Translations under genes and position numbers: made by a program
The notes under the pieces: model-generated
Seen by the model: the letters and a program-made list of their open reading frames with translations, nothing else
What the model was told of the DNA's origin: nothing
The model's database searches: none
Assembly: GCA_902571975.1 (NCBI GenBank)
Contig: CACGED010000002.1
Location: forward strand, 62,001-126,000
From: an uncultured Pelagibacteraceae bacterium
Lineage (GTDB): Bacteria; Pseudomonadota; Alphaproteobacteria; Pelagibacterales; Pelagibacteraceae
Length of the DNA stretch: 64,000 bases
Direction of reading: 5' to 3'
In this document: positions 259-11,234 of the stretch, one piece after another
Layout: every line of letters begins with the position of its first letter
Numbering within the stretch: position 1 is the stretch's first letter

Positions 259-1113
259 ATGATAATATGGCTTGCATCTTATCCCAAGAGTGGAAATACA
301 TGGATTAGATCTTTTTTAGCTTCATTATTATTTAATAAAAATAACAAAGCTGATTTGGATGGAATTTCAAATATACCCCAGTATCCTTTAAGATCGCATT
401 TTAAAAATCTTGTAAATAATATTGATGATATAAAAGAAATTTCATCTAACTGGGTTAAATCTCAAAGTTTAATCAATAATGATAAAAAAATTAAATTTTT
501 TAAAACACATCATGCTCTTTGTAATTACCAAGGAAATAACTTTACTAATTTAGAAAACACTTTAGGTGTTATACACATCGTTCGTGATCCAAGAAATATA
601 ATCTCATCAATACTTTATCACTATTCGAAAGAGAATTACAACAAAGCTCTTGAATTTATGTTAGATGATAATAAAGCTTTAGGTAAGAAATTTGATAAAA
701 AAAGTCCAACTGTAAACAGAGATATGTTTACAATAATTTCATCATGGAAAAATAATTATAATTCTTGGAAAAATTTTAGAGGGAATTATTTATTGATAAA
801 ATATGAAAACTTATTGTTCGAACCAAATAAAGAATTTTATAAGATATGTAATTACTTGACTGATAAAATAAACATTAAATTTGATGATGAAAAAATTTTT
901 ACTGCAATAAAAGAAAATAATTTTGAAAATCTTAAAAAATTGGAGAACAGTAAGGGATTTAATGAAACGGTTAAGGATAAATCAACAGGAAAACTTAAAA
1001 AATTTTTTAATTTAGGTCCTGAAAATAAATGGGAAAATATATTAGATCCAAAAATCAAAACAATGATAGAGAAAGAATTTAAAGAAGAAATGAAAGAATT
1101 GAGGTATTTATAA
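259..1113 (+). CDS. Sulfotransferase domain protein
   Basis: A 284-residue cytosolic protein with both PAPS-binding signatures of the Sulfotransfer_1 fold. The 5'-phosphosulfate loop is YPKSGNTW at residues 8-15. The 3'-phosphate-binding stretch HIVRDPRNIISSILYHYS is near residues 106-123. FKTHHA around residue 82 is the usual strand before the catalytic histidine region. It should move sulfate from PAPS to a hydroxyl of a glycan, lipid or small molecule; the acceptor cannot be told. Its 3' end overlaps the convergent OGT-like gene by 6 bp, so the two probably arrived or evolved as neighbours. Such genes are accessory in this lineage, and this one sits between mnmE and rho, normally a core region. 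Confidence 0.85.
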   Translation: MIIWLASYPKSGNTWIRSFLASLLFNKNNKADLDGISNIPQYPLRSHFKNLVNNIDDIKEISSNWVKSQSLINNDKKIKFFKTHHALCNYQGNNFTNLENTLGVIHIVRDPRNIISSILYHYSKENYNKALEFMLDDNKALGKKFDKKSPTVNRDMFTIISSWKNNYNSWKNFRGNYLLIKYENLLFEPNKEFYKICNYLTDKINIKFDDEKIFTAIKENNFENLKKLENSKGFNETVKDKSTGKLKKFFNLGPENKWENILDPKIKTMIEKEFKEEMKELRYL

Positions 1114-2805
1114 ATTTCTCTTATAAACTTTTAAAAGTTCATTTTTTAAACCCTCAGCAAACTTCTGCGAGTCGTAAAGAGGTGTACTAAGAATATTGCT
1201 AAATATTTTTTCCCTTATAGAAGTTAATTCATCTATGTTATTAGCTAAGTGAGTTGCTTTTTGGATATATTGGTCTTCATTTTCTGCCAAAAAGTATTCT
1301 AAATTGCCGTTTTTTACTATACTCTCTCCGCACCTAGAGTTGAAATTATAACCTTTCAATACCAGGACTGGAACACCAGCCCATAAAGCCTCAAAGGTAG
1401 TAGTAACTCCATTATATGGAAAAGTATCTAGACCAATATCAACATTATTATATAATTTTATATGATCCTCAACTTCTGAATAATTTTGACGATCAAAGAA
1501 TTCTAATTGTTTATCAACACCATAATTTTTAAATTTTGAAATAATATTTTTTGTTTGATAACTAAAAGAAGATTTTAAGATCAATTTAGAATTTTTAACT
1601 TCTTTTAAAATTTTGCTCCAAGTTCTAATTACTTCATCAGATATTTTAAGAAAATTATTAAATGAACCAAAAGTAATAAATTTATTTTTTTTAAATGGTA
1701 GATCTAACTTTTCTCTCTTAAATGGAAAACCTGAATGACAGTTCCAAACATGTGGGAGTTTAATAATTTTTTCTGAATAATATTTTTCTTCCTCATCATA
1801 TATTAAGTTTTTGTCTGCTATTAAGTAATCAATATCATTGAAACCAACCGTATTACAAAAAGCTAACCATGATATCTGTATGGGGCAAACTCTGTTGTTA
1901 AATATTTCAATATTTTTGGCTCCAGTTAATCCCATTACATCAAATAATATTTCAATTTTGTCAGTTTGGATTTTGTTGATAATTTCCTGATTTGAGGTTT
2001 TTGATAAATCGTACCAAAAGTCTGAATTATCTTTTAACTCTTTAGACGATGATTTAAGAAGTGAAGACTCACCAATTTGATATACAGATACTTCAAAAAT
2101 ATTTTTATCTAAATTTTTTATTGTATTCTTAACAAAATATGTAACTGAGTGATTGACCACAAAATCAGGAGATACAAAACCTATTTTTATTTTATTATTT
2201 TTTTTGTAGTCGATATCATTTATGTCATTTACTTTAAGTTTGGGAAAAAAAGTTTTGAAATCTTTGGAATAATTATAATAATCTTTAATCCCCCAGTCAT
2301 AGATATAATTATTCATCATACCATAAGTACAAGCATTTATTTTTAATTTAGAATTGTTTTCTAAAACTTTTTTTGACAATTGAAGAACTTTTTTGGGATT
2401 TAACAAGTACTTATGTAAATCAATACCACTTAGGTATAATTTCTCATTGTAGGGAAAATTTTTTTCAGCCTCATCAAACATTAATTTAGCATTTTCTAAA
2501 AAATCAATGACATTAAGATATTTTTGAGAATTTTTAATACATGCGGTGATATAATTACCTAGTGCCTCAATGCCTGCTAAGTTTGTTTTTAATTTTTTGT
2601 AAGCATCTTCAAAGTCAGATAGTGCAGATATAACATCTTCTTCTGTATAATTTGGATTTAGCATTTTACAAACTCCAACCAAAGATGACAAACCACCAGG
2701 ACGATTGTCTCTTTTTGAATATTCCTCTACTTTAAGAATAATATCTTTGTACTTTTTTCTTGAAAATAAATCTAAGAGTGTTCTTTGAAAATTTTGATCA
2801 ACCAT
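1108..2805 (-). CDS. TPR/OGT-like glycosyltransferase (GT41 family)
   Basis: A 565-residue protein. Residues 1-200 are helical, TPR-like repeats. Residues 205-565 carry the catalytic core of the SPINDLY/O-GlcNAc transferase family (GT41). Diagnostic segments are KIGFVSPDF near 207, FGSFNNFLKISDEVIRTW near 385, and GLDTFPYNGVTTTFEALWAG followed by VPVLVL near 460-485, the nucleotide-sugar binding region. It probably adds a sugar from a UDP-sugar to Ser/Thr of proteins or builds a surface glycan; the acceptor is unknown. It runs toward the sulfotransferase (6-bp tail overlap), away from rho. The 91-bp gap to rho shows no clear terminator. Confidence 0.85.
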   Translation of the reverse strand: MVDQNFQRTLLDLFSRKKYKDIILKVEEYSKRDNRPGGLSSLVGVCKMLNPNYTEEDVISALSDFEDAYKKLKTNLAGIEALGNYITACIKNSQKYLNVIDFLENAKLMFDEAEKNFPYNEKLYLSGIDLHKYLLNPKKVLQLSKKVLENNSKLKINACTYGMMNNYIYDWGIKDYYNYSKDFKTFFPKLKVNDINDIDYKKNNKIKIGFVSPDFVVNHSVTYFVKNTIKNLDKNIFEVSVYQIGESSLLKSSSKELKDNSDFWYDLSKTSNQEIINKIQTDKIEILFDVMGLTGAKNIEIFNNRVCPIQISWLAFCNTVGFNDIDYLIADKNLIYDEEEKYYSEKIIKLPHVWNCHSGFPFKREKLDLPFKKNKFITFGSFNNFLKISDEVIRTWSKILKEVKNSKLILKSSFSYQTKNIISKFKNYGVDKQLEFFDRQNYSEVEDHIKLYNNVDIGLDTFPYNGVTTTFEALWAGVPVLVLKGYNFNSRCGESIVKNGNLEYFLAENEDQYIQKATHLANNIDELTSIREKIFSNILSTPLYDSQKFAEGLKNELLKVYKRNL

Positions 2806-2896
2806 ATTTAAGATTTAGTATGATAACTTATATTTATTTTAAGATTAAGAATAGATGTTAAACAAGAATTTAAAAGCTTATAAATATGGTAAAAAC

Positions 2897-4168
2897 TTAG
2901 GAAGGTTTGTTCATTGAGTTAAAAAACTCAGCGTTATTTTTTGTTGTTTTCAATTTTGAATTTATAAAATCAATTGCATCCATGGAACCCATTGGAGCTA
3001 TAATTCTTCTTAAAACATTCATTTTTTGAAGATCATTTTTATCAAAAATAAGTTCTTCTCTTCTCGTACCAGATTTAGTTATATCAATGGCTGGGAATAT
3101 TCTTTTCTCTGAAATTTTTCTATCTAAAATAGTTTCACTATTTCCAGTTCCTTTAAATTCTTCAAAAATTACTTCATCCATTCTACTGCCAGTATCAATT
3201 AAAGCGGTAGCTATAATTGTTAGAGATCCTCCTTCTTCAATATTCCTAGCTGCTCCAAAAAACCTTTTTGGTCTTTGAAGAGCGTTCGCATCTACTCCTC
3301 CTGTTAATACTTTACCAGAACTTGGAACGACAGCATTATATGCTCTTCCAAGTCTTGTGATTGAGTCTAATAAAATTACAACATCTTTTTTGTGTTCTGT
3401 TAATCTCTTAGCTTTTTCAATTACCATTTCAGCAACAGCTACATGACGCTGAGCTGGTTCATCAAATGTTGAACTTATTACCTCACCTTTAACAGTTCTT
3501 TGCATGTCTGTTACCTCCTCAGGCCTCTCATCTATGAGTAATACCATTAAATAACATTCAGGATGATTTGCTGTAATAGAATTTGCAATACTTTGTAAAA
3601 TCATTGTTTTCCCAGCTTTAGGTGGTGAAATAATTAGAGATCTTTGTCCTTTTCCTATCGGGCTAACTAAATCAATTAATCTTGGAGTTAAGTCGGGCTT
3701 CTTCTCAACTTTATTACTTTCAACCTCCATTCCTAATTGTTTATTAGGATATAAAGGAGTTAGGTTGTCGAAAGCTATCTTATGTTTAAATTTATCTGGT
3801 TCTTCAAAATTTATTTTACTCACCTGCAGAAGTGCAAAGTATCTTTCACCTTCCTTAGGAGATCTAATTGGACCTTCAACTGAGTCTCCAGTTCTTAATC
3901 CAAATCTTCTGATTTGGCTTGGACTTACATATATATCATCTGCTCCTGGCAAATAATTTGACTCCATTGCTCTAAGAAAACCGAAACCATCTTGAAGTAA
4001 CTGTAATACACCACCACCTGTAATTTCTTCACCTTTTTCAGCAAGTTTTTTTAAAATTGCAAAATAAATTTCTTGCCTTCTTAGTGTACTTGCGTTTTCA
4101 ATACCTAATTTTTCTGCTTCAGTGATTAACTTTTCAGAGCTTTTTTCTTTTAATTCTTGAATATTCAT
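2897..4168 (-). CDS. rho: Transcription termination factor Rho
   Basis: A full-length hexameric RNA helicase of 423 residues. It has the N-terminal Rho_N helical domain, a cold-shock-like RNA-binding domain ([16 protein letters not shown] near 51-66; [20 protein letters not shown]) and a RecA-like ATPase with Walker A SPPKAGKT near residue 178 and the Walker B stretch [12 protein letters not shown]. It ends transcription of untranslated RNA. Because many convergent gene pairs in this window share their stop codons and leave no room for hairpin terminators, Rho may carry much of the termination load here (inference). It is the last gene of the minus-strand hemE-hemH-hemJ-rho series. Confidence 0.97.
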
Positions 4169-4226
4169 TTGTGGGGGTTTTGTTTGAGATCATTTAAATA
4201 TATATACTAGTTCAAAAATTTCAACC

Positions 4227-4661
4227 CTAGATAGGTTTAAAAACTACAACAAAAACAACAAAAATTAACAATAATGTAGGTATTTCGTTGATTATTCTAA
4301 AAAATTTAGATGATTTTGTGTTTTCTTTTGATTTTAATAATCTCATACATCGTCCAAGGTATTCATGATAAATCGTTAATAAAACTACTAATAGAATTTT
4401 AAGTTGTAGCCATAGAAATGCAAAACTTTCAATACCATTTATCCAAATCAATATAATACCAAAAAACCATGATAGAAGCATGGCCGGTCGCATTATGTAA
4501 TTATATAGTTTTTTTTCCATTATCTCAAAAATTTGAGTTACTTGACCTTTTTCAGAATTTTCAACATGATAGACAAATATTCTTGGTAAATATAAAAGTC
4601 CCGCCATCCAAGAAATAACTGCAATTAGATGGAGCGATTTAAATAAAAGATATCCACTCAT
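4227..4661 (-). CDS. hemJ: Protoporphyrinogen oxidase HemJ
   Basis: A 144-residue inner-membrane protein with four predicted membrane helices. It starts MSGYLLFKSLHLIAVISW and continues MAGLLYLPRIFVYHVE, which is the conserved HemJ (UPF0093) N-terminus with its essential histidine near position 11. HemJ oxidises protoporphyrinogen IX to protoporphyrin IX, the step just before ferrochelatase. The start lies 2 bp after the hemH stop, and the hemE-hemH-hemJ order is that seen beside the origin in other alphaproteobacteria. No hemG or hemY is visible in the window. Confidence 0.93.
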   Translation of the reverse strand: MSGYLLFKSLHLIAVISWMAGLLYLPRIFVYHVENSEKGQVTQIFEIMEKKLYNYIMRPAMLLSWFFGIILIWINGIESFAFLWLQLKILLVVLLTIYHEYLGRCMRLLKSKENTKSSKFFRIINEIPTLLLIFVVFVVVFKPI

Positions 4662-4663
4662 AA

Positions 4664-5656
4664 TTAAATATTTTTCATAACGAGATGTTTAAATAACATA
4701 ATGTGATCCTCACTATCATTTAAACATGGTACCATCTCAAAATTTTCACCACCTGATTTAATAAAACTTTCTTTTCCTTGAATGGATATTTCTTCTAAAG
4801 TTTCCACGCAGTCAGATGAAAATCCTGGACATATAACTAAAATATTTTTCTTGCCTTCTTTTGGAAGATTTTCAAAAGTTTTATCAGTATATGGTTGTAA
4901 CCATTCTTGAGGGCCAAATCTTGATTGAAAAGTTGTAATTATTTTTATATCTGAATATTTTTCAGAAATAAGTCTGGTAGTTTTGTGACAATAACAGTGA
5001 TAAGGATCACCTTTTTCAAAATACTTTTTTGGTATGCCATGATAAGATGCTACAATTAAATCTGGTTTCCAACTTATTTCATTTATTTTTTTTTCAATAC
5101 TATTTTTAATTGCTTCGATATAAAGAGGTTCTGATTCATAATGTGGAATTATTTTAAGACTGGGTTGCCACCTCATTTTCATTAATGTTCTATAAACTTC
5201 ATCGCACACTGTTGCTGTTGTTGCTGCAGCGTATTGAGGGTAGAGAGGTAATATAATCAACTTTTCGCAACCCTGTTTCTGAAGTCGATGAATTTTACTA
5301 TTAATACTTGGATTTCCATATCTCATTGCAAAATCAATAATTATCTCCTCGTTTCCAATCTTTTCTGACAGTTTTTTTGCTTGGCTTTCTGTATAGTATC
5401 TAAGTGGAGACATGTTTTTATCATTCATCCATATTTCTTTATACGCTTTAGCAGTTTTAGAAGGCCTAAAGGTAAGTATAAATAGGTTAAGTATTACTTG
5501 CCAAATTAGAGGATTTACTTCGATTACTCTTTTATCAGATAGAAATTCCTTTAGATATTTTCTTATATCCAGCCAACTTGTTGAGTCTGGTGTACCTAAA
5601 TTTACAATTAGTATCCCTGTTTTACCATAATTAATTTTTGGATGATCTGGTGTCAT
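4664..5656 (-). CDS. hemH: Ferrochelatase
   Basis: A 330-residue enzyme that inserts Fe2+ into protoporphyrin IX to make heme. It has the N-terminal ILIVNLGTPD motif (residues 16-25), the catalytic histidine in ASYHGIPKKYFEKGDPYH near 204-221, the GPQEWLQPYTDKT substrate segment near 248, and the CPGFSSDCVETLEEI signature near 275. Length is normal for a bacterial ferrochelatase without the C-terminal iron-sulfur extension. It overlaps the upstream hemE stop by 4 bp (ATGA), implying coupled translation. Confidence 0.97.
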   Translation of the reverse strand: MTPDHPKINYGKTGILIVNLGTPDSTSWLDIRKYLKEFLSDKRVIEVNPLIWQVILNLFILTFRPSKTAKAYKEIWMNDKNMSPLRYYTESQAKKLSEKIGNEEIIIDFAMRYGNPSINSKIHRLQKQGCEKLIILPLYPQYAAATTATVCDEVYRTLMKMRWQPSLKIIPHYESEPLYIEAIKNSIEKKINEISWKPDLIVASYHGIPKKYFEKGDPYHCYCHKTTRLISEKYSDIKIITTFQSRFGPQEWLQPYTDKTFENLPKEGKKNILVICPGFSSDCVETLEEISIQGKESFIKSGGENFEMVPCLNDSEDHIMLFKHLVMKNI

Positions 5657-6654
5657 TTAAAATTTCTTACAATCTTTATTAATTCTTCAACCATTTCAAT
5701 TTTAGTCTCTGGAAGTATTCCGTGACCTAAATTAAAAATGTATGGGTGGTCTTTAAAAACATTAAGGTATTTCTCAACTTCTATTTTAAGAGTTTTTTGA
5801 TCAGTTAATAATATTTTTGGATCGAGGCCACCCTGTATTGGTATGTTGATTTCATTGACTATTTTCTTTGGGTCAATATCATAATCTATATTTACAGCGT
5901 CAGGTTTAACAATTTCACAAAAATTTTTATAATCTTTTATACCTCTAGGAAAACAAATAACTGGTACTCCTAATGTCTTTACATAATCAACAATATTAAG
6001 GGTAGGTATATAAATATATTCTGGAATTTTATCTTTTAATAATCCAGCCCAACTATCAAAAATTTGAATAACTTGAGCTCCAGCCTCAATTTGATTTTTT
6101 ATATGAAGTTTTAAAAATTTCTCTATTATTCCTAGTAATCTATTAATTAAAAAATCATCTTTAAAAAATTCACTCGATAAACCTTTTTTGGGAGATGATT
6201 TATTAATCATATAAACTAGTATCGTCCAAGGAGCTCCAACAAATCCAATCATATCTTTATTAATCATTAAAGGATCTTTTGACGTTTTTGAGATTGCTTT
6301 ATAAACTTTATAAACTTTTTCTGTAAAAATTATTTCATCTACATTTTTTATTGTTTCTAAATTTATATCTCCCAATTTAGGCCCAAAATTTTTTTCAAAT
6401 TCTACTTTTTGCCCTAACCCATATGGTAACATTAAAATATCTGAAAATATTACTGCGCCATCAAATCCAAATCTTTTTATTGGTTGAAGTGTTATTTCAG
6501 AAGCTAGATCGCTGTTTAAGCAGAGTTTTATAAAATCTTGATTTTCTTTTCTAATCTCTCTAAATTCAGGTAAGTATCTTCCTGCTTGTCTCATTAACCA
6601 TATAGGATTAGTCCTTGTATCTTTATTTTTAATGCAGTTAGTTAAGGGACTCAT
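5653..6654 (-). CDS. hemE: Uroporphyrinogen decarboxylase
   Basis: A 333-residue cytosolic enzyme that converts uroporphyrinogen III to coproporphyrinogen III. Visible motifs are the substrate-binding PIWLMRQAGRYLPEFRE (residues 18-34), FSDILMLPYGLG near 71, IGFVGAPWTI near 136, and GHGILPET near 314. It is the first gene of the minus-strand heme block. Its start faces the 284-bp gap proposed as the replication origin; in Caulobacter and Rickettsia the origin also borders hemE. Confidence 0.97.
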   Translation of the reverse strand: MSPLTNCIKNKDTRTNPIWLMRQAGRYLPEFREIRKENQDFIKLCLNSDLASEITLQPIKRFGFDGAVIFSDILMLPYGLGQKVEFEKNFGPKLGDINLETIKNVDEIIFTEKVYKVYKAISKTSKDPLMINKDMIGFVGAPWTILVYMINKSSPKKGLSSEFFKDDFLINRLLGIIEKFLKLHIKNQIEAGAQVIQIFDSWAGLLKDKIPEYIYIPTLNIVDYVKTLGVPVICFPRGIKDYKNFCEIVKPDAVNIDYDIDPKKIVNEINIPIQGGLDPKILLTDQKTLKIEVEKYLNVFKDHPYIFNLGHGILPETKIEMVEELIKIVRNFK

Positions 6655-6938
6655 ATAAATAGATATATATTATTTACTTTATTAGTATTATGTAATGTGA
6701 ATAACGTAAATTAGTCAATTACCACACTTAATTAACTTTTTATTAACAATTTAAATCTTAAATTAGTAAGGTATTTTAGGCTTAATTTTAGATTTCTCTT
6801 ATTTTATTACTATTATGTATAAAATTAATCACAATTTATAACTAGGTTAATTATATGGAAAAAAAACAAGTTTTGGCAGGTTTAATTTCTAAATCTACAT
6901 TTTTCTTATTTTACTAATAGTTTATAAACATCTTATAC
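6655..6938. other. Candidate chromosomal replication origin (hemE-ppsR intergenic region)
   Basis: The largest gene-free stretch in the window, very AT-rich, lies between divergent hemE and ppsR. The origin of Caulobacter and Rickettsia occupies the equivalent place between hemE and the RP001-type gene. It contains a perfect TTWTNCACA box on the minus strand (6696-6704), one-mismatch boxes at 6825-6833 and 6922-6930, and a TTAA-N7-TTAA pair at 6732-6746 resembling a CtrA site. There is also a 14-bp near-direct repeat (6681-6694 and 6806-6819, one mismatch), each copy followed within 20 bp by a DnaA-like box, and a second repeat, AAATTAGT, at 6708-6715 and 6760-6767. Genes on both sides are transcribed away from it for several kilobases. 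The identification rests on synteny plus these short sites. Confidence 0.6.
6696..6704 (-). promoter_or_regulatory. DnaA box (consensus match)
   Basis: The plus strand reads TGTGAATAA, which is TTATTCACA on the minus strand, an exact fit to TTWTNCACA. One such site is expected by chance now and then in AT-rich DNA. Its weight comes from lying inside the hemE-ppsR gap, next to weaker boxes. Confidence 0.5.
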
Positions 6939-7766
6939 ATGAAAAACTTGTATCAAATTTATCTAATTTCAGATTCAACTGGTGAAACATTAGATAGAAT
7001 TTTCTTAGCACTTAAAGCACAGTTTCCTAATTTTGAATATGAAACTAATCATTTTTCTTTTACAAGAACTGAAAGTCAAACTTTAAGTATTTTGAAACAA
7101 GCTAAAAAAGACGAAAATTCAATAATATTGTATACTATTGTGAACAGTAAATTAGCAAAATATCTTACAGAGAAAGCTTACGAAAGAAAAATACCCTGCT
7201 TCGGAGTACTAGGAGATTTAATACTAAACTTTTCAAAAGTTCTAAATCAAAAAGCTTCACACCAACCAAGTGGTCAACATATTTTGAATGAGGAATATTA
7301 TGATAGAATTGAAGCAATTCAATTTACAATGAATCATGACGATGGTAATCAAACAGACGATATAGAAAAATCAGATATTATTCTTTTGGGTGTTAGCAGA
7401 ACTAGCAAAACCCCGACATCTATATACTTGGCCAATAGGGGCTTTAAAACATCTAATATCCCTTTAGTAAATAAAAACTCTATACCAAGTATGGTGACTA
7501 AGAAAAATTTTTCACCGTGTGTAGTTGGGTTAGTTACTGAAGCGGAGAGATTATATGATTTAAGAAAGAATAGACTAAATTCACTAAAGGAAAATCAAAA
7601 TAGTGAGTATGTAAATATTGATAAAATTAGAGATGAGGTAAATAATAGTAGAAAAATATTTAAAGAAAATAACTGGCCCATAATAGATGTAACAAGAAAA
7701 TCTGTTGAAGAAACAGCTGCATCTATAATTAAAATTTATGAAATAAAAAATAAAAAGAATGACTGA
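6939..7766 (+). CDS. ppsR: PPDK/PEP synthase regulatory kinase-pyrophosphorylase
   Basis: A 275-residue member of the DUF299 (PPSR) family, which phosphorylates and dephosphorylates pyruvate phosphate dikinase or PEP synthase. It starts YLISDSTGETL (residues 8-18) and carries the nucleotide-binding loop LLGVSRTSKTPTSIYLANRG near 150-169, both family hallmarks. I take it to be the counterpart of the gene flanking the origin in Rickettsia (RP001) and Caulobacter. An upstream in-frame extension is blocked by stop codons. It overlaps maf by 8 bp. Confidence 0.93.
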   Translation: MKNLYQIYLISDSTGETLDRIFLALKAQFPNFEYETNHFSFTRTESQTLSILKQAKKDENSIILYTIVNSKLAKYLTEKAYERKIPCFGVLGDLILNFSKVLNQKASHQPSGQHILNEEYYDRIEAIQFTMNHDDGNQTDDIEKSDIILLGVSRTSKTPTSIYLANRGFKTSNIPLVNKNSIPSMVTKKNFSPCVVGLVTEAERLYDLRKNRLNSLKENQNSEYVNIDKIRDEVNNSRKIFKENNWPIIDVTRKSVEETAASIIKIYEIKNKKND

Positions 7767-8343
7767 CATTATTTTAGCTTCAAAAAGTAAAGTAAGAAAA
7801 GAAATATTAGACAACCATAAAATTAATAGCAAAGTTGAGGTATCAAATGTTGATGAAGATCCAATAAAAGAAAGTTTATTAAAAGAGGGAGCTTCACCAG
7901 AAATTATTTCTAAAAATTTAGCAGAATTAAAAGCAAATAAAGTAAGTCAAAAAATCAATAACAGTCTTGTTTTGGGAGCCGATAGCGTAATAGACCTTTC
8001 AGGTGAGCTAATTTCAAAACCAGCAAGTAGGAATGAAGCGCTTAATATTTTGAAAAAACTTAATGGGAAGAAACACTCTTTAATAAGTTCAGTATGTATA
8101 TCTAAAAATGGTTCCATGATTTGGAATTATACTGATAAAGCATACTTAACCATGAAAAATTTTTCTGAAAATGAATTAATAATGTATTTAAGCAAAATCA
8201 GTGACGAAAACTTATATGCGTATAATGTTTACCAAATTGAGGGGGAAGGAAGAGCTTTGTTTTCAAATATTGAAGGTAATGAAGATACAATAATGGGCTT
8301 ACCAATTAATAAAATAAAAGAATATTTGGAACTTCAAAAATGA
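7759..8343 (+). CDS. maf: Maf family nucleotide pyrophosphatase
   Basis: A 194-residue Maf/HAM1-fold protein with the N-terminal ILASKSKVRKEIL motif (residues 4-16, usually SxSxRR), a LGADSVID metal/nucleotide site near 72, and KPASRNEA near 88. Family members hydrolyse non-canonical or methylated nucleoside triphosphates and are linked to septum formation. The second arginine of the SxRR motif is lysine here. It overlaps ppsR and aroE by a few bases (ATGA with aroE at 8340), so the three are probably one transcript. Confidence 0.9.
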   Translation: MTDIILASKSKVRKEILDNHKINSKVEVSNVDEDPIKESLLKEGASPEIISKNLAELKANKVSQKINNSLVLGADSVIDLSGELISKPASRNEALNILKKLNGKKHSLISSVCISKNGSMIWNYTDKAYLTMKNFSENELIMYLSKISDENLYAYNVYQIEGEGRALFSNIEGNEDTIMGLPINKIKEYLELQK

Positions 8344-9131
8344 AAAAATTTTTAGTCATAGGAAATCCAATTGAACACTCTTTATCTCCAAATTTACATA
8401 ATTATTGGATTAAAAAAAATAATTTAAATGCGATTTATGGAAAATTGGAGACTTATGAAAATGATCTTCCAGAATTATGTAAATCAGTTAAAAGAGGAGA
8501 ACTAGATGGTCTTAATGTTACAGTCCCATTTAAAAATTCTATTATTCCATTTTTGGATAAACTAACAACTGAAGCTGAAAAAACGCAGTCAGTTAATACT
8601 ATTTATTTAAAAGATGAAATGGTCATAGGCCATAATACAGATATAGAAGGTTTTGAGTTAGCAATAAAACATATAAAATATGATGTAAGTCAAAAGAAAG
8701 TATTGCTATTAGGAGCAGGGGGAGTCTCTCCTTCAATAATTTTTGCTTTAAATAATATGAAGGCTAAGAGAATTTTTATAAGTAATAGGACACGCAGTAA
8801 AGCTGAAAATTTAAAAAAAATTTTTAGCGAAATCGAAATTGTTGAGTGGGGAGCATTACCTGATTTAGATATGATTATTAATGCCACGAGTTTAGGTTTA
8901 AAAAATGATGAAAAAATTAATTTAGAATATTCTAAAATTGGATCTAATAAATTTTTCTATGATGTTATATACAATCCTTCTCAAACTAATTTTTTGAAAT
9001 CTGGCAAAGATACTGGCAATAAAACAGAAAATGGAATGAAAATGTTTTTATATCAAGCGCAAGCTTCATTTAAAATTTGGAATAAAATTACACCTGAAGT
9101 AAATGATAAAATATTGAAATTATTATACTAA
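8340..9131 (+). CDS. aroE: Shikimate 5-dehydrogenase
   Basis: A 263-residue NADP-dependent enzyme of the chorismate pathway, reducing 3-dehydroshikimate to shikimate. Motifs: GNPIEHSLSPNLHNYW (residues 8-23) with shikimate-binding serines; NVTVPFKN near 59-66 with the catalytic lysine; HNTDIEGF near 101; the glycine-rich loop LLGAGGVSPS near 122; and ENGMKMFLYQA near 230. Its position between maf and coaE matches the alphaproteobacterial block. The ATG overlaps the maf stop. Confidence 0.96.
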   Translation: MKKFLVIGNPIEHSLSPNLHNYWIKKNNLNAIYGKLETYENDLPELCKSVKRGELDGLNVTVPFKNSIIPFLDKLTTEAEKTQSVNTIYLKDEMVIGHNTDIEGFELAIKHIKYDVSQKKVLLLGAGGVSPSIIFALNNMKAKRIFISNRTRSKAENLKKIFSEIEIVEWGALPDLDMIINATSLGLKNDEKINLEYSKIGSNKFFYDVIYNPSQTNFLKSGKDTGNKTENGMKMFLYQAQASFKIWNKITPEVNDKILKLLY

Positions 9132-9143
9132 AACAATTTTTGC

Positions 9144-10004
9144 ATGATTAAAAAACACTTAGAGAATTATATAAATTTAGCAAAAAAACATGATGAAAAT
9201 CTTCAATTTAGTATTGCTGATATTGGTGCTCATCCTTATGAACTTAAAGAAGAACCATATCATATGTTTCTAGATCATTTTCCTGGCTCGAAAGTATTTG
9301 CATTTGATATCGATGAGCATGAATGCAAAAAATTAAACAGTAATGCAAAAGAAGGTTTAAAATTTTATCCTTATGCCCTTGGAAAAAAAAACGAAAAAAG
9401 ACTATTTTATGAGACTAATCATCCGATGTGTAGCTCATTGTATGAACCTGACACTGATATGATGAAATTATATAATGCTCTAGAGAATGCATATCTTAAA
9501 AAAACTTATGAAATAGAAACTATTACATTGGACAAATTCATCAAAGACGAAAAAATTGAAGATTTAGATTTTATAAAAATAGATATTCAAGGTGGAGAGC
9601 TTGACGTTTTAGAGGGTGCAGTCACAGTTTTAAGTAAAATTATTGCTGTGGTATCTGAAGTTGAATTTGTACAAATTTATAAAAAACAACCGTTATTTGG
9701 AGATGTTAATACTTTTTTGACTAATCAAAATATGATGTTTTATAAATTTTTAGGTTTATCTGGTAGGACGATGAGACCTACCATAATAAAAGATATTCTT
9801 TATGCTAGTCAGCATATGTGGTCAGATGCATTATTTATAAAGAAATTTGAAGAGATAAGAAAATTAACCTCTTCAAAATTGCTTAAACTATCAATAATAG
9901 CAGCTATTTATGGGAGTCCAGATATATCTTTTAACTGTTTTAAAATATTTGATGAAATAAACAACACAAATTTAACAAAAGAATTAGTAAAATTATCCTC
10001 ATGA
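9144..10004 (+). CDS. FkbM family methyltransferase
   Basis: A 286-residue SAM-dependent methyltransferase. Motif I is SIADIGAHPYE near residues 23-33, the acidic strand end is VFAFDIDEHE near 51, and the FkbM post-motif is DFIKIDIQGGELDVLEGA near 143-160. FkbM enzymes methylate sugars or lipid-linked glycans; the substrate here is unknown. A roughly 75-residue C-terminal helical tail follows the fold. It lies between aroE and coaE, which are adjacent in related genomes, so it looks like a lineage-specific insertion placed in frame with the operon (12 bp after aroE, 4-bp overlap with coaE). Confidence 0.82.
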   Translation: MIKKHLENYINLAKKHDENLQFSIADIGAHPYELKEEPYHMFLDHFPGSKVFAFDIDEHECKKLNSNAKEGLKFYPYALGKKNEKRLFYETNHPMCSSLYEPDTDMMKLYNALENAYLKKTYEIETITLDKFIKDEKIEDLDFIKIDIQGGELDVLEGAVTVLSKIIAVVSEVEFVQIYKKQPLFGDVNTFLTNQNMMFYKFLGLSGRTMRPTIIKDILYASQHMWSDALFIKKFEEIRKLTSSKLLKLSIIAAIYGSPDISFNCFKIFDEINNTNLTKELVKLSS

Positions 10005-10594
10005 TTGTTTTGGGCATATTAGGTGAAATAGGTGCAGGTAAAAGTTTTGTTGCAAAGCAATTTGGTTGTCCTGTTTTTAATGCAGATTATGAAGTAAACG
10101 AAATTTATAATAAGGATAAAATTTCTTTTAAAAAAATAAAAGCTGCACTTCCTAAATTCATCAAATCATTTCCTATTAATAAAGCTGAATTAAGTAATGC
10201 ATTATTATCAAATAAAAGAAATCTCAAAAAAATTATAAAAATAGTTCATCCAGTTGTAAGAAAAAAAATGGATATATTTTTAAAAAAAAATGAAAGTAAG
10301 AAGATGGTAATATTAGATATTCCACTTTTAATTGAAAATAAATTAAATAAAAAAAGCCATATTTTAATTTTCGTAAATACTAAGCGTTTGTTAATTAATT
10401 CAAGGCTCAAAAAAAGAAAAAACTACAACAAAAAAATTCTTCAAAATCTTAGGAAAAACCAAGTTTCTACGAATAAAAAAAAAAAATTAGCTGATTATAT
10501 TATCGATAATAATTTTTCTCCTAATATAATAAAAAAAAAAATTAGATTATTAAAAAAAAAAATTATACATGAAAGAAATAGTTCTAGATACTGA
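10001..10594 (+). CDS. coaE: Dephospho-CoA kinase
   Basis: A 197-residue P-loop kinase for the last step of CoA synthesis. The Walker A loop is LGEIGAGKSFVAKQFG (residues 6-21), the lid precedes VHPVVRKKM near 83, and VILDIPLLIENK near 102-113 is the conserved core. The C-terminal third is extremely lysine- and asparagine-rich, in line with the AT bias. The 3' end overlaps dnaQ by 26 bp in another frame, a long overlap by local standards. Confidence 0.92.
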   Translation: MIVLGILGEIGAGKSFVAKQFGCPVFNADYEVNEIYNKDKISFKKIKAALPKFIKSFPINKAELSNALLSNKRNLKKIIKIVHPVVRKKMDIFLKKNESKKMVILDIPLLIENKLNKKSHILIFVNTKRLLINSRLKKRKNYNKKILQNLRKNQVSTNKKKKLADYIIDNNFSPNIIKKKIRLLKKKIIHERNSSRY

Positions 10595-11234
10595 GACAAC
10601 GGGATTGTCTATAAGAGATGGCCATCGTATCGTTGAAATTGGATGTATAGAGCTTGATAATTTAATACCCTCTAAAAACATATTTCATTTTTATTTAAAT
10701 CCAGAAAGGAAAGTGTCTGATAAAGCTTTTGAGGTTCATGGATACTCTGATGAATTTTTATCAACCAAGCAGAAATTCGTTGAAATTGCTGATGATTTTC
10801 TAAATTTTATCAAAGATAAAAAAATTATAATTCATAATGCCGAATTTGATATTGGTCATCTCAATAATGAATTAGCTTTAATAGGAAAGCAAAAAATTAA
10901 CAATGCGAATGTTATTGATACATTAGAATTGGCAAGAAATAAGTTTCCAGGATCTGGTATTAGTCTTGATGCTTTATGCAAGAGATTTCGCATAGATAAT
11001 TCTAAAAGAGAAAAACATACTGCTCTTATTGACTGTGAGTTACTTGCAAGAGTCTATATAAATTTAATAGACCAAAAAGAACCCACCCTAGATTTATCAG
11101 ACAATAATGAGAGTAAAATTTCCTCATTAAATGGTCAGTCAGATTATTATAAAAAAGTTATTTTACCAACTGAACAAGAATTATCAAACCACAAAGAATT
11201 TCTTAAAAAAAACTTAAAAAAAAATTTTTTTTAA
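10569..11234 (+). CDS. dnaQ: DNA polymerase III epsilon subunit (3'-5' exonuclease)
   Basis: A 221-residue DEDDh proofreading exonuclease. ExoI is VLDTETTGLSIRDGHR (Asp7, Glu9), ExoII is IIHNAEFDIGHLN near residues 91-103, and ExoIII is KHTALIDCELLARVY near 154-168 with the catalytic His and Asp. The tail after residue 180 should bind the polymerase alpha subunit. It starts inside coaE. Its TAA shares the tetranucleotide TTAA (11231-11234) with the stop of the convergent secB. Confidence 0.95.
   Translation: MKEIVLDTETTGLSIRDGHRIVEIGCIELDNLIPSKNIFHFYLNPERKVSDKAFEVHGYSDEFLSTKQKFVEIADDFLNFIKDKKIIIHNAEFDIGHLNNELALIGKQKINNANVIDTLELARNKFPGSGISLDALCKRFRIDNSKREKHTALIDCELLARVYINLIDQKEPTLDLSDNNESKISSLNGQSDYYKKVILPTEQELSNHKEFLKKNLKKNFF

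Follow-up and report, generated by a model that had tools for sequence, protein, structure and literature searches.

Introduction

Where chromosome replication starts in a SAR11 bacterium is the question raised by an intergenic gap of exactly 284 bp (positions 6655–6938) between the divergent hemE and PPPase (ppsR) genes. SAR11 bacteria are among the most abundant cell groups in the ocean. The gap lies in a stretch of 64,000 nucleotides, termed here the window, which comprises bases 62,001–126,000 of contig 2 (C2) of a draft genome (1.09 Mb in 36 contigs, 77% complete); the closest named records for its PPPase protein, at up to 97% identity, are proteins of Pelagibacteraceae single-cell genomes and MAGs, which identifies the genome as SAR11. 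The origins of Caulobacter crescentus (Cori) and Rickettsia prowazekii are placed at the hemE / COG1806-RP001 junction in an earlier study (PMC1914354), and in the portions of the literature that we searched no paper placed a SAR11 origin at hemE. Judged from sequence, the gap very probably serves this SAR11 bacterium as its chromosomal replication origin (oriC). This placement, which an initial annotation of the window had proposed, is well supported by the DnaA boxes, by their conservation and their clustering within the searched DNA, by the switch of skew and gene orientation in relatives, and by the centres of chromosomal inversions.

Results

The hemE–ppsR gap and its flanking genes

The gap and its neighbours were delineated as follows:

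2897–5656, minus strand: rho, a hemJ-type (UPF0093) gene and hemH, the left neighbours (Pfam), in an order beside hemE identical in the relative G069
5653–6654, minus strand: hemE, flanking gene (PF01208, E 2.3e-81)
6655–6938, no strand: proposed oriC, AT-rich and intergenic, the sole cluster of three boxes within the 146 kb of contig covered
6939–7766, plus strand: PPPase gene, kinase/pyrophosphorylase (ppsR, RP001/COG1806-type), flanking gene (PF03618, E 4.4e-88)

Several descriptions in the initial annotation were borne out: the gap is the longest stretch without open reading frames of at least 80 codons in 146 kb of the contig, by the small margin of 284 over 274 bp; genes run outward on both sides (minus strand at 1108–6654, plus strand at 6939–11234); and two pairs of short repeats are present, of 37 nt at 76% identity (6783/6890) and of 21 nt at 90% (6674/6799). 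These repeats lie partly in its central portion, where conservation is low, and we did not adopt them as functional parts. The G+C content of 0.18 conforms to the raised AT content of hemE-type origins, and among 145,716 segments of the same length only 230 have a lower stability. Within the gap, stability is low at 6790–6855 and the least stable 50 bp begin at 6655, and searches with Rfam and for tRNAs yielded no match inside it. In the surroundings of the gap, a GT41-like glycosyltransferase gene (1108–2805) and an FkbM methyltransferase gene (9144–10004) are without a same-place orthologue in the relatives G012, G069 and G068, and are possible lineage-specific inserts.

DnaA boxes cluster in the gap

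Inspection of the gap and of its alignments yielded the following elements:

6696–6704, minus strand: predicted DnaA box 1, TTATTCACA, within the best-conserved part of the gap
6729–6737, plus strand: degenerate tandem half-box copy, family consensus TTATTAAC (consensus of alignment A1, 55 sequences), 2 nt ahead of box 2
6740–6748, plus strand: predicted DnaA box 2, TTATTAACA (relaxed), from the TTATNMACA scan and alignment A1
6750–6890, no strand: AT-rich middle of the gap, candidate duplex-opening region, of low conservation in 62 aligned sequences
6825–6833, plus strand: weak site resembling a box, TTAATCACA, differing from TTATTCACA at one position, read from the sequence
6922–6930, plus strand: predicted DnaA box 3, TTATAAACA (relaxed), adjoining ppsR

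Box 1 had been called perfect, which is correct for TTATNCACA only, as it carries one mismatch to TTATCCACA. Allowing up to one mismatch to TTATCCACA, the whole window contains 19 matches compared with 21.6 in shuffles, and in view of this lack of excess the box at 6696–6704 means little on its own. Strict TTATNCACA occurs once in the gap. A further motif, TGTGGTAAT, was discarded with 12 matches compared with 18.4 in shuffles; its sole exact match in the window lies in the gap (6718–6726, minus strand).

We used the relaxed box TTATNMACA, a motif picked after viewing an alignment of 31 gaps. Three such sites are found in the gap, and no other 284-bp segment within the 146 kb covered contains as many. 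Likewise, the corresponding locus is the only cluster of at least three relaxed boxes in the regions read of G012 (593 kb), G069 (488 kb) and G068 (468 kb), where one cluster site overlaps the ppsR start codon in both G069 and G068; the gap of G075 has one box and no cluster. The 31 gaps from which the motif was chosen contain 93 relaxed boxes compared with 5.6 in shuffles, and 28 gaps outside this choice contain 74 compared with 4.6 (maximum of 200 shuffles: 11), with at least one box in 27 of the 28. Taking all 59 gaps together, 38 have at least three boxes and seven have fewer than two, one of these (L032) having none, and the 78 gaps of named Pelagibacteraceae divide into 11 with one box, 19 with two, 43 with three and five with four. 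The gap thus possesses several DnaA boxes, more than other intergenic regions, as does a hemE-type origin, when relaxed boxes are counted.

Across the window and 61 close relatives, box positions are also better conserved than the rest of the gap, at 96.8% versus 85.3% (p 2e-5 by a rank test, p 0.02 when three 9-mers are placed at random). Here, as for the box excess, the loci are relatives of one another and do not represent independent events. Box 1, written as TGT[GT]NATAA, is intact in 60 of 62 aligned sequences, in which bases 6696–6720 are nearly invariant and 15-mers starting at 6696–6706 are 99% conserved. The half-box copy of the window departs from the A1 consensus TTATTAAC, and the place aligned to the weak site at 6825–6833 reads TTATTCACA in relatives such as L003–L005. 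The DnaA protein of G012 aligns to solved DnaA chains, 1j1v among them (E 1.8e-20).

The locus is conserved across the genus and beyond

The divergent arrangement of hemE and ppsR, with a gap of 261–286 bp, was present in 58 of 58 loci fetched from genus and order searches (30 of 51 genus/order matches from one search and 28 more of 58 from another). Among 80 loci of named Pelagibacteraceae, 78 display the hemE–ppsR order with gaps of 282–288 bp, and the contigs of the remaining two end before hemE.

We built R1, a model that describes a 67-nt core by sequence alone; the window itself is a member of it, and R1 matches contig 2 at C2:68686–68751, equal to window 6686–6751. Of 46 genomes of the same genus (45 with at least 95% completeness plus the 77% complete genome of the window), R1 located the core at the gap in 44, each time 183–208 bp before the ppsR match, and the two genomes that it missed are also without a PF03618 match. 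Seventeen of the 44, as well as G073 of another genus, are outside the model. In same-family genomes of other genera, only two of 14 gave an R1 match in the gap, both weak: in G073 at the same place, and in G117 inside the gap on the opposite strand; eight other weak matches fall elsewhere (E 0.002–0.0075). As the other 12 genomes gave no match, the R1 core is a genus-level signature, and its use beyond the genus was rejected.

Outside the genus the boxes persist in looser form, so that the conservation expected by the initial annotation holds within the genus and weakens beyond it. In genus g3, G065 has a 276-bp hemE–ppsR gap with three boxes. A class-wide sample contained PF03618 in 24 of 39 genomes; leaving out the window's own locus, hemE is the divergent neighbour of ppsR in 20 of 23, and TTATNMACA is present in 11 of these 20 gaps.

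The gap is retained when its neighbours are replaced

The position between hemE and COG1806/RP001, as found in the window, is not found in G068 and in three genomes of family f2. In G068 (genus g4), hemE is located at 718 kb and rho lies directly left of the gap, whose four sites form a denser box cluster than any other in that region. None of the three f2 genomes has a PF03618 match, and their hemE has maf on the far side of a gap of 262–278 bp, with three boxes in one genome and none in two. The constant element is hence the gap, more than hemE or ppsR.

Regarding hemE itself, the genes of the g4 genomes G067 and G068 (L201/L202), located away from this locus, score 190 and 188 bits with the family model versus 296 in G065, and the g4 gene is possibly a replaced one; the open reading frame following it appears ferrochelatase-like by eye. 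The hemE of G069 (L200/L203) gives a two-piece match with two stops in the second piece, reflecting either sequencing error or real decay.

CtrA, IHF and GANTC sites

The TTAA-N7-TTAA pair pointed out in the initial annotation is present at 6732–6746; its implied role as a CtrA site is not supported, as the pair is poorly conserved, occurring in 22 of 60 related gaps with 25 sites, somewhat above the 15.7 ± 4.0 in shuffles. Of four OmpR-type regulators found in G012, none reached the CtrA cut-off of 350 (top score 133.5), and for one of the four CtrA was absent among the 25 families listed. A ctrA orthologue is reported absent in Pelagibacter (PMC2877005), and few or no CtrA sites are also reported for some hemE-type origins (PMC1914354). 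Two versions of the IHF consensus, WATCAN4WTR and the same with N5, each occurred at 21 sites in 18 of 60 gaps, equal to shuffles, for a loose consensus that a diverged site could escape. GANTC was found twice in the gaps of 60 loci compared with 11 in shuffles, and is also scarce in long regions (169 versus 425 expected in the contig). A role for CtrA, IHF or GANTC sites in the gap is not supported. On CcrM in SAR11, PMC3973325 has one sentence of ambiguous wording, from which we draw no conclusion.

Observed-to-expected ratios of GANTC were about 0.4–0.75 across contig 2, G012, G069 and G068. An OmpR-type winged-helix protein is encoded outside the window at contig 2:48641–48850 (L239), with counterparts in G012 (L246), G069 (L247) and G068 (L248), about 18–28 kb from ppsR in each genome; L239, L246 and L248 match regulator models mostly over the C-terminal part of the models.

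Strand skew, gene orientation and inversions

Strand skew was sampled in the single-contig genomes G012, G075, G069 and G068, using 20 even stretches each, 57–66 kb apart. The best two-step GC-skew origin fell at 1,260,000 in G012 (ppsR at 1,262,228), at 600,000 in G075 (604,674) and at 140,000 in G068 (141,307). As sampled, three of the four closed relatives thus have their best fit less than 10 kb away from ppsR. In G069 it fell at 300,000, beside dnaA (295,652) and not ppsR (359,498), by a small preference (GC 0.115 versus 0.109). The switch that the initial annotation expected here and not beside dnaA was accordingly seen in the former three genomes and lay nearer dnaA in the fourth. Taking ppsR as the origin with an opposite terminus gave permutation p values of 0.019 (G012), 0.0002 (G075), 0.0006 (G069) and 0.0004 (G068). 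For AT skew, G068 failed (p 0.11), with its best fit far away at 540,000, and G012 was marginal (p 0.06).

Coding sequence occupies the leading strand to 61–74%, and much of the skew signal is gene orientation. The best orientation switch was at ppsR in G012 (1,260,000) and G075 (605,000), at 295,000–300,000 in G069 and at 150,000–185,000 in G068. Strand-corrected third-position skew was weak, with a clear preference for ppsR over dnaA only for GC3 in G068 and with best fits far from both genes for GC3 in G075 and AT3 in G068. At finer resolution, in joined regions of 243–273 kb, cumulative purine excess has its minimum 31–34 kb from ppsR on the hemE side in three genomes, and GC-skew minima fell at +29, −32 and −19 kb. 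Within the window, cumulative GC skew is minimal at the 2-kb step 6001–8000.

Between genera, orthologues inverted from one genome to the other are separated by ppsR in 82/82, 27/27, 51/51 and 122/123 pairs (282/283 overall) in four comparisons of C2 or G012 with G069 or G068; these comparisons have genomes in common and do not count as independent. The median midpoints are 4.7–10.4 kb from ppsR and not at dnaA, with single pairs at −26 to +76 kb. The compared regions had ppsR at their centre, and a more distant midpoint could be detected only within their limits.

Discussion

Alternative explanations

A conserved two-way hemE/ppsR promoter, with transcription under the control of DnaA or some other regulator and replication starting elsewhere, would account for part of these observations: divergent genes should have promoters for both directions in the gap, and its gene-adjoining ends are its most conserved parts. 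We nevertheless consider this reading very unlikely, as G068 has kept the box cluster even though hemE moved away, a gap of similar size adjoins hemE in f2 without ppsR (with boxes in one of three f2 gaps), and a promoter gives no reason for the skew switch and the inversion centres to fall there.

Similarly improbable is an origin near but outside the gap, for instance next to dnaA or where purine excess is lowest on the hemE side. The dnaA gene is about 61–72 kb from ppsR in 10 of 11 single-contig genomes (those with a readable distance), specifically 61–64 kb in seven of genus g1 and 71–72 kb in two of g4, and in g4 it lies on the other side of ppsR than in g1; occupying opposite sides at a like distance, dnaA is not the centre. 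Skew and orientation in G069 do favour about 300,000, adjoining dnaA, yet neither there nor in C2, G012 or G068 did we find a three-box cluster beside dnaA or at the purine minimum, and the inversion centres are nearer the gap, in agreement with the initial proposal of a location away from dnaA. The minimum of purine excess that three genomes show at −31 to −34 kb would also suit a neighbouring origin; we tentatively attribute it to gene orientation, which short-range purine excess is expected to track.

A probable variant of the hemE-type origin

With the gap as oriC, DnaA would bind the minus-strand box at 6696–6704, the plus-strand boxes at 6729–6748 and the plus-strand site at 6922–6930 beside ppsR, and would open AT-rich DNA within the gap, presumably followed by the loading of two replisomes, one departing in the direction of hemE and the other in that of ppsR. 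Regulation may proceed without CtrA.

The locus resembles the Caulobacter crescentus Cori and Rickettsia prowazekii origins in its divergent flanking genes, AT-rich gap and DnaA boxes, and is smaller, at about 284 bp versus the more than 400 bp given for those origins (PMC1914354). In contrast to these origins, its boxes are mostly relaxed TTATNNACA with one TTATNCACA, IHF sites are not enriched in SAR11 gaps, TTAA-N7-TTAA is poorly conserved, GANTC is nearly absent, and a ctrA orthologue is reported to be lacking in Pelagibacter (PMC2877005). Since position and DnaA boxes agree and the CtrA and IHF features fail as tested, we regard it as a variant of the hemE-type origin. The exchange of a flanking gene while the origin stays is also described for Wolbachia, Ehrlichia and Anaplasma (COG1253–hemE), where COG1253 replaces COG1806 (PMC1914354); in SAR11 relatives, rho replaces hemE (G068) and maf replaces ppsR (f2). 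The chances appear evenly balanced that the SAR11 oriC is a stripped-down ancestral alphaproteobacterial origin of about 260–290 bp, driven by DnaA, without conserved CtrA, IHF or GANTC sites, and acting as a fixed chromosome pivot at which hemE and ppsR are both replaceable.

Growth estimates from metagenomes depend on the positions of replication start and end, and in one study SAR11 is anchored on a terminus derived from coverage (PMC9589681). An origin at base level, together with a 67-nt signature that locates it in same-genus drafts, would give such methods a fixed point. Furthermore, the locus occupies the same position as the origins of distant relatives, apparently without the cell-cycle control sites usual there, and offers a test of initiation control in a bacterium without reported CtrA.
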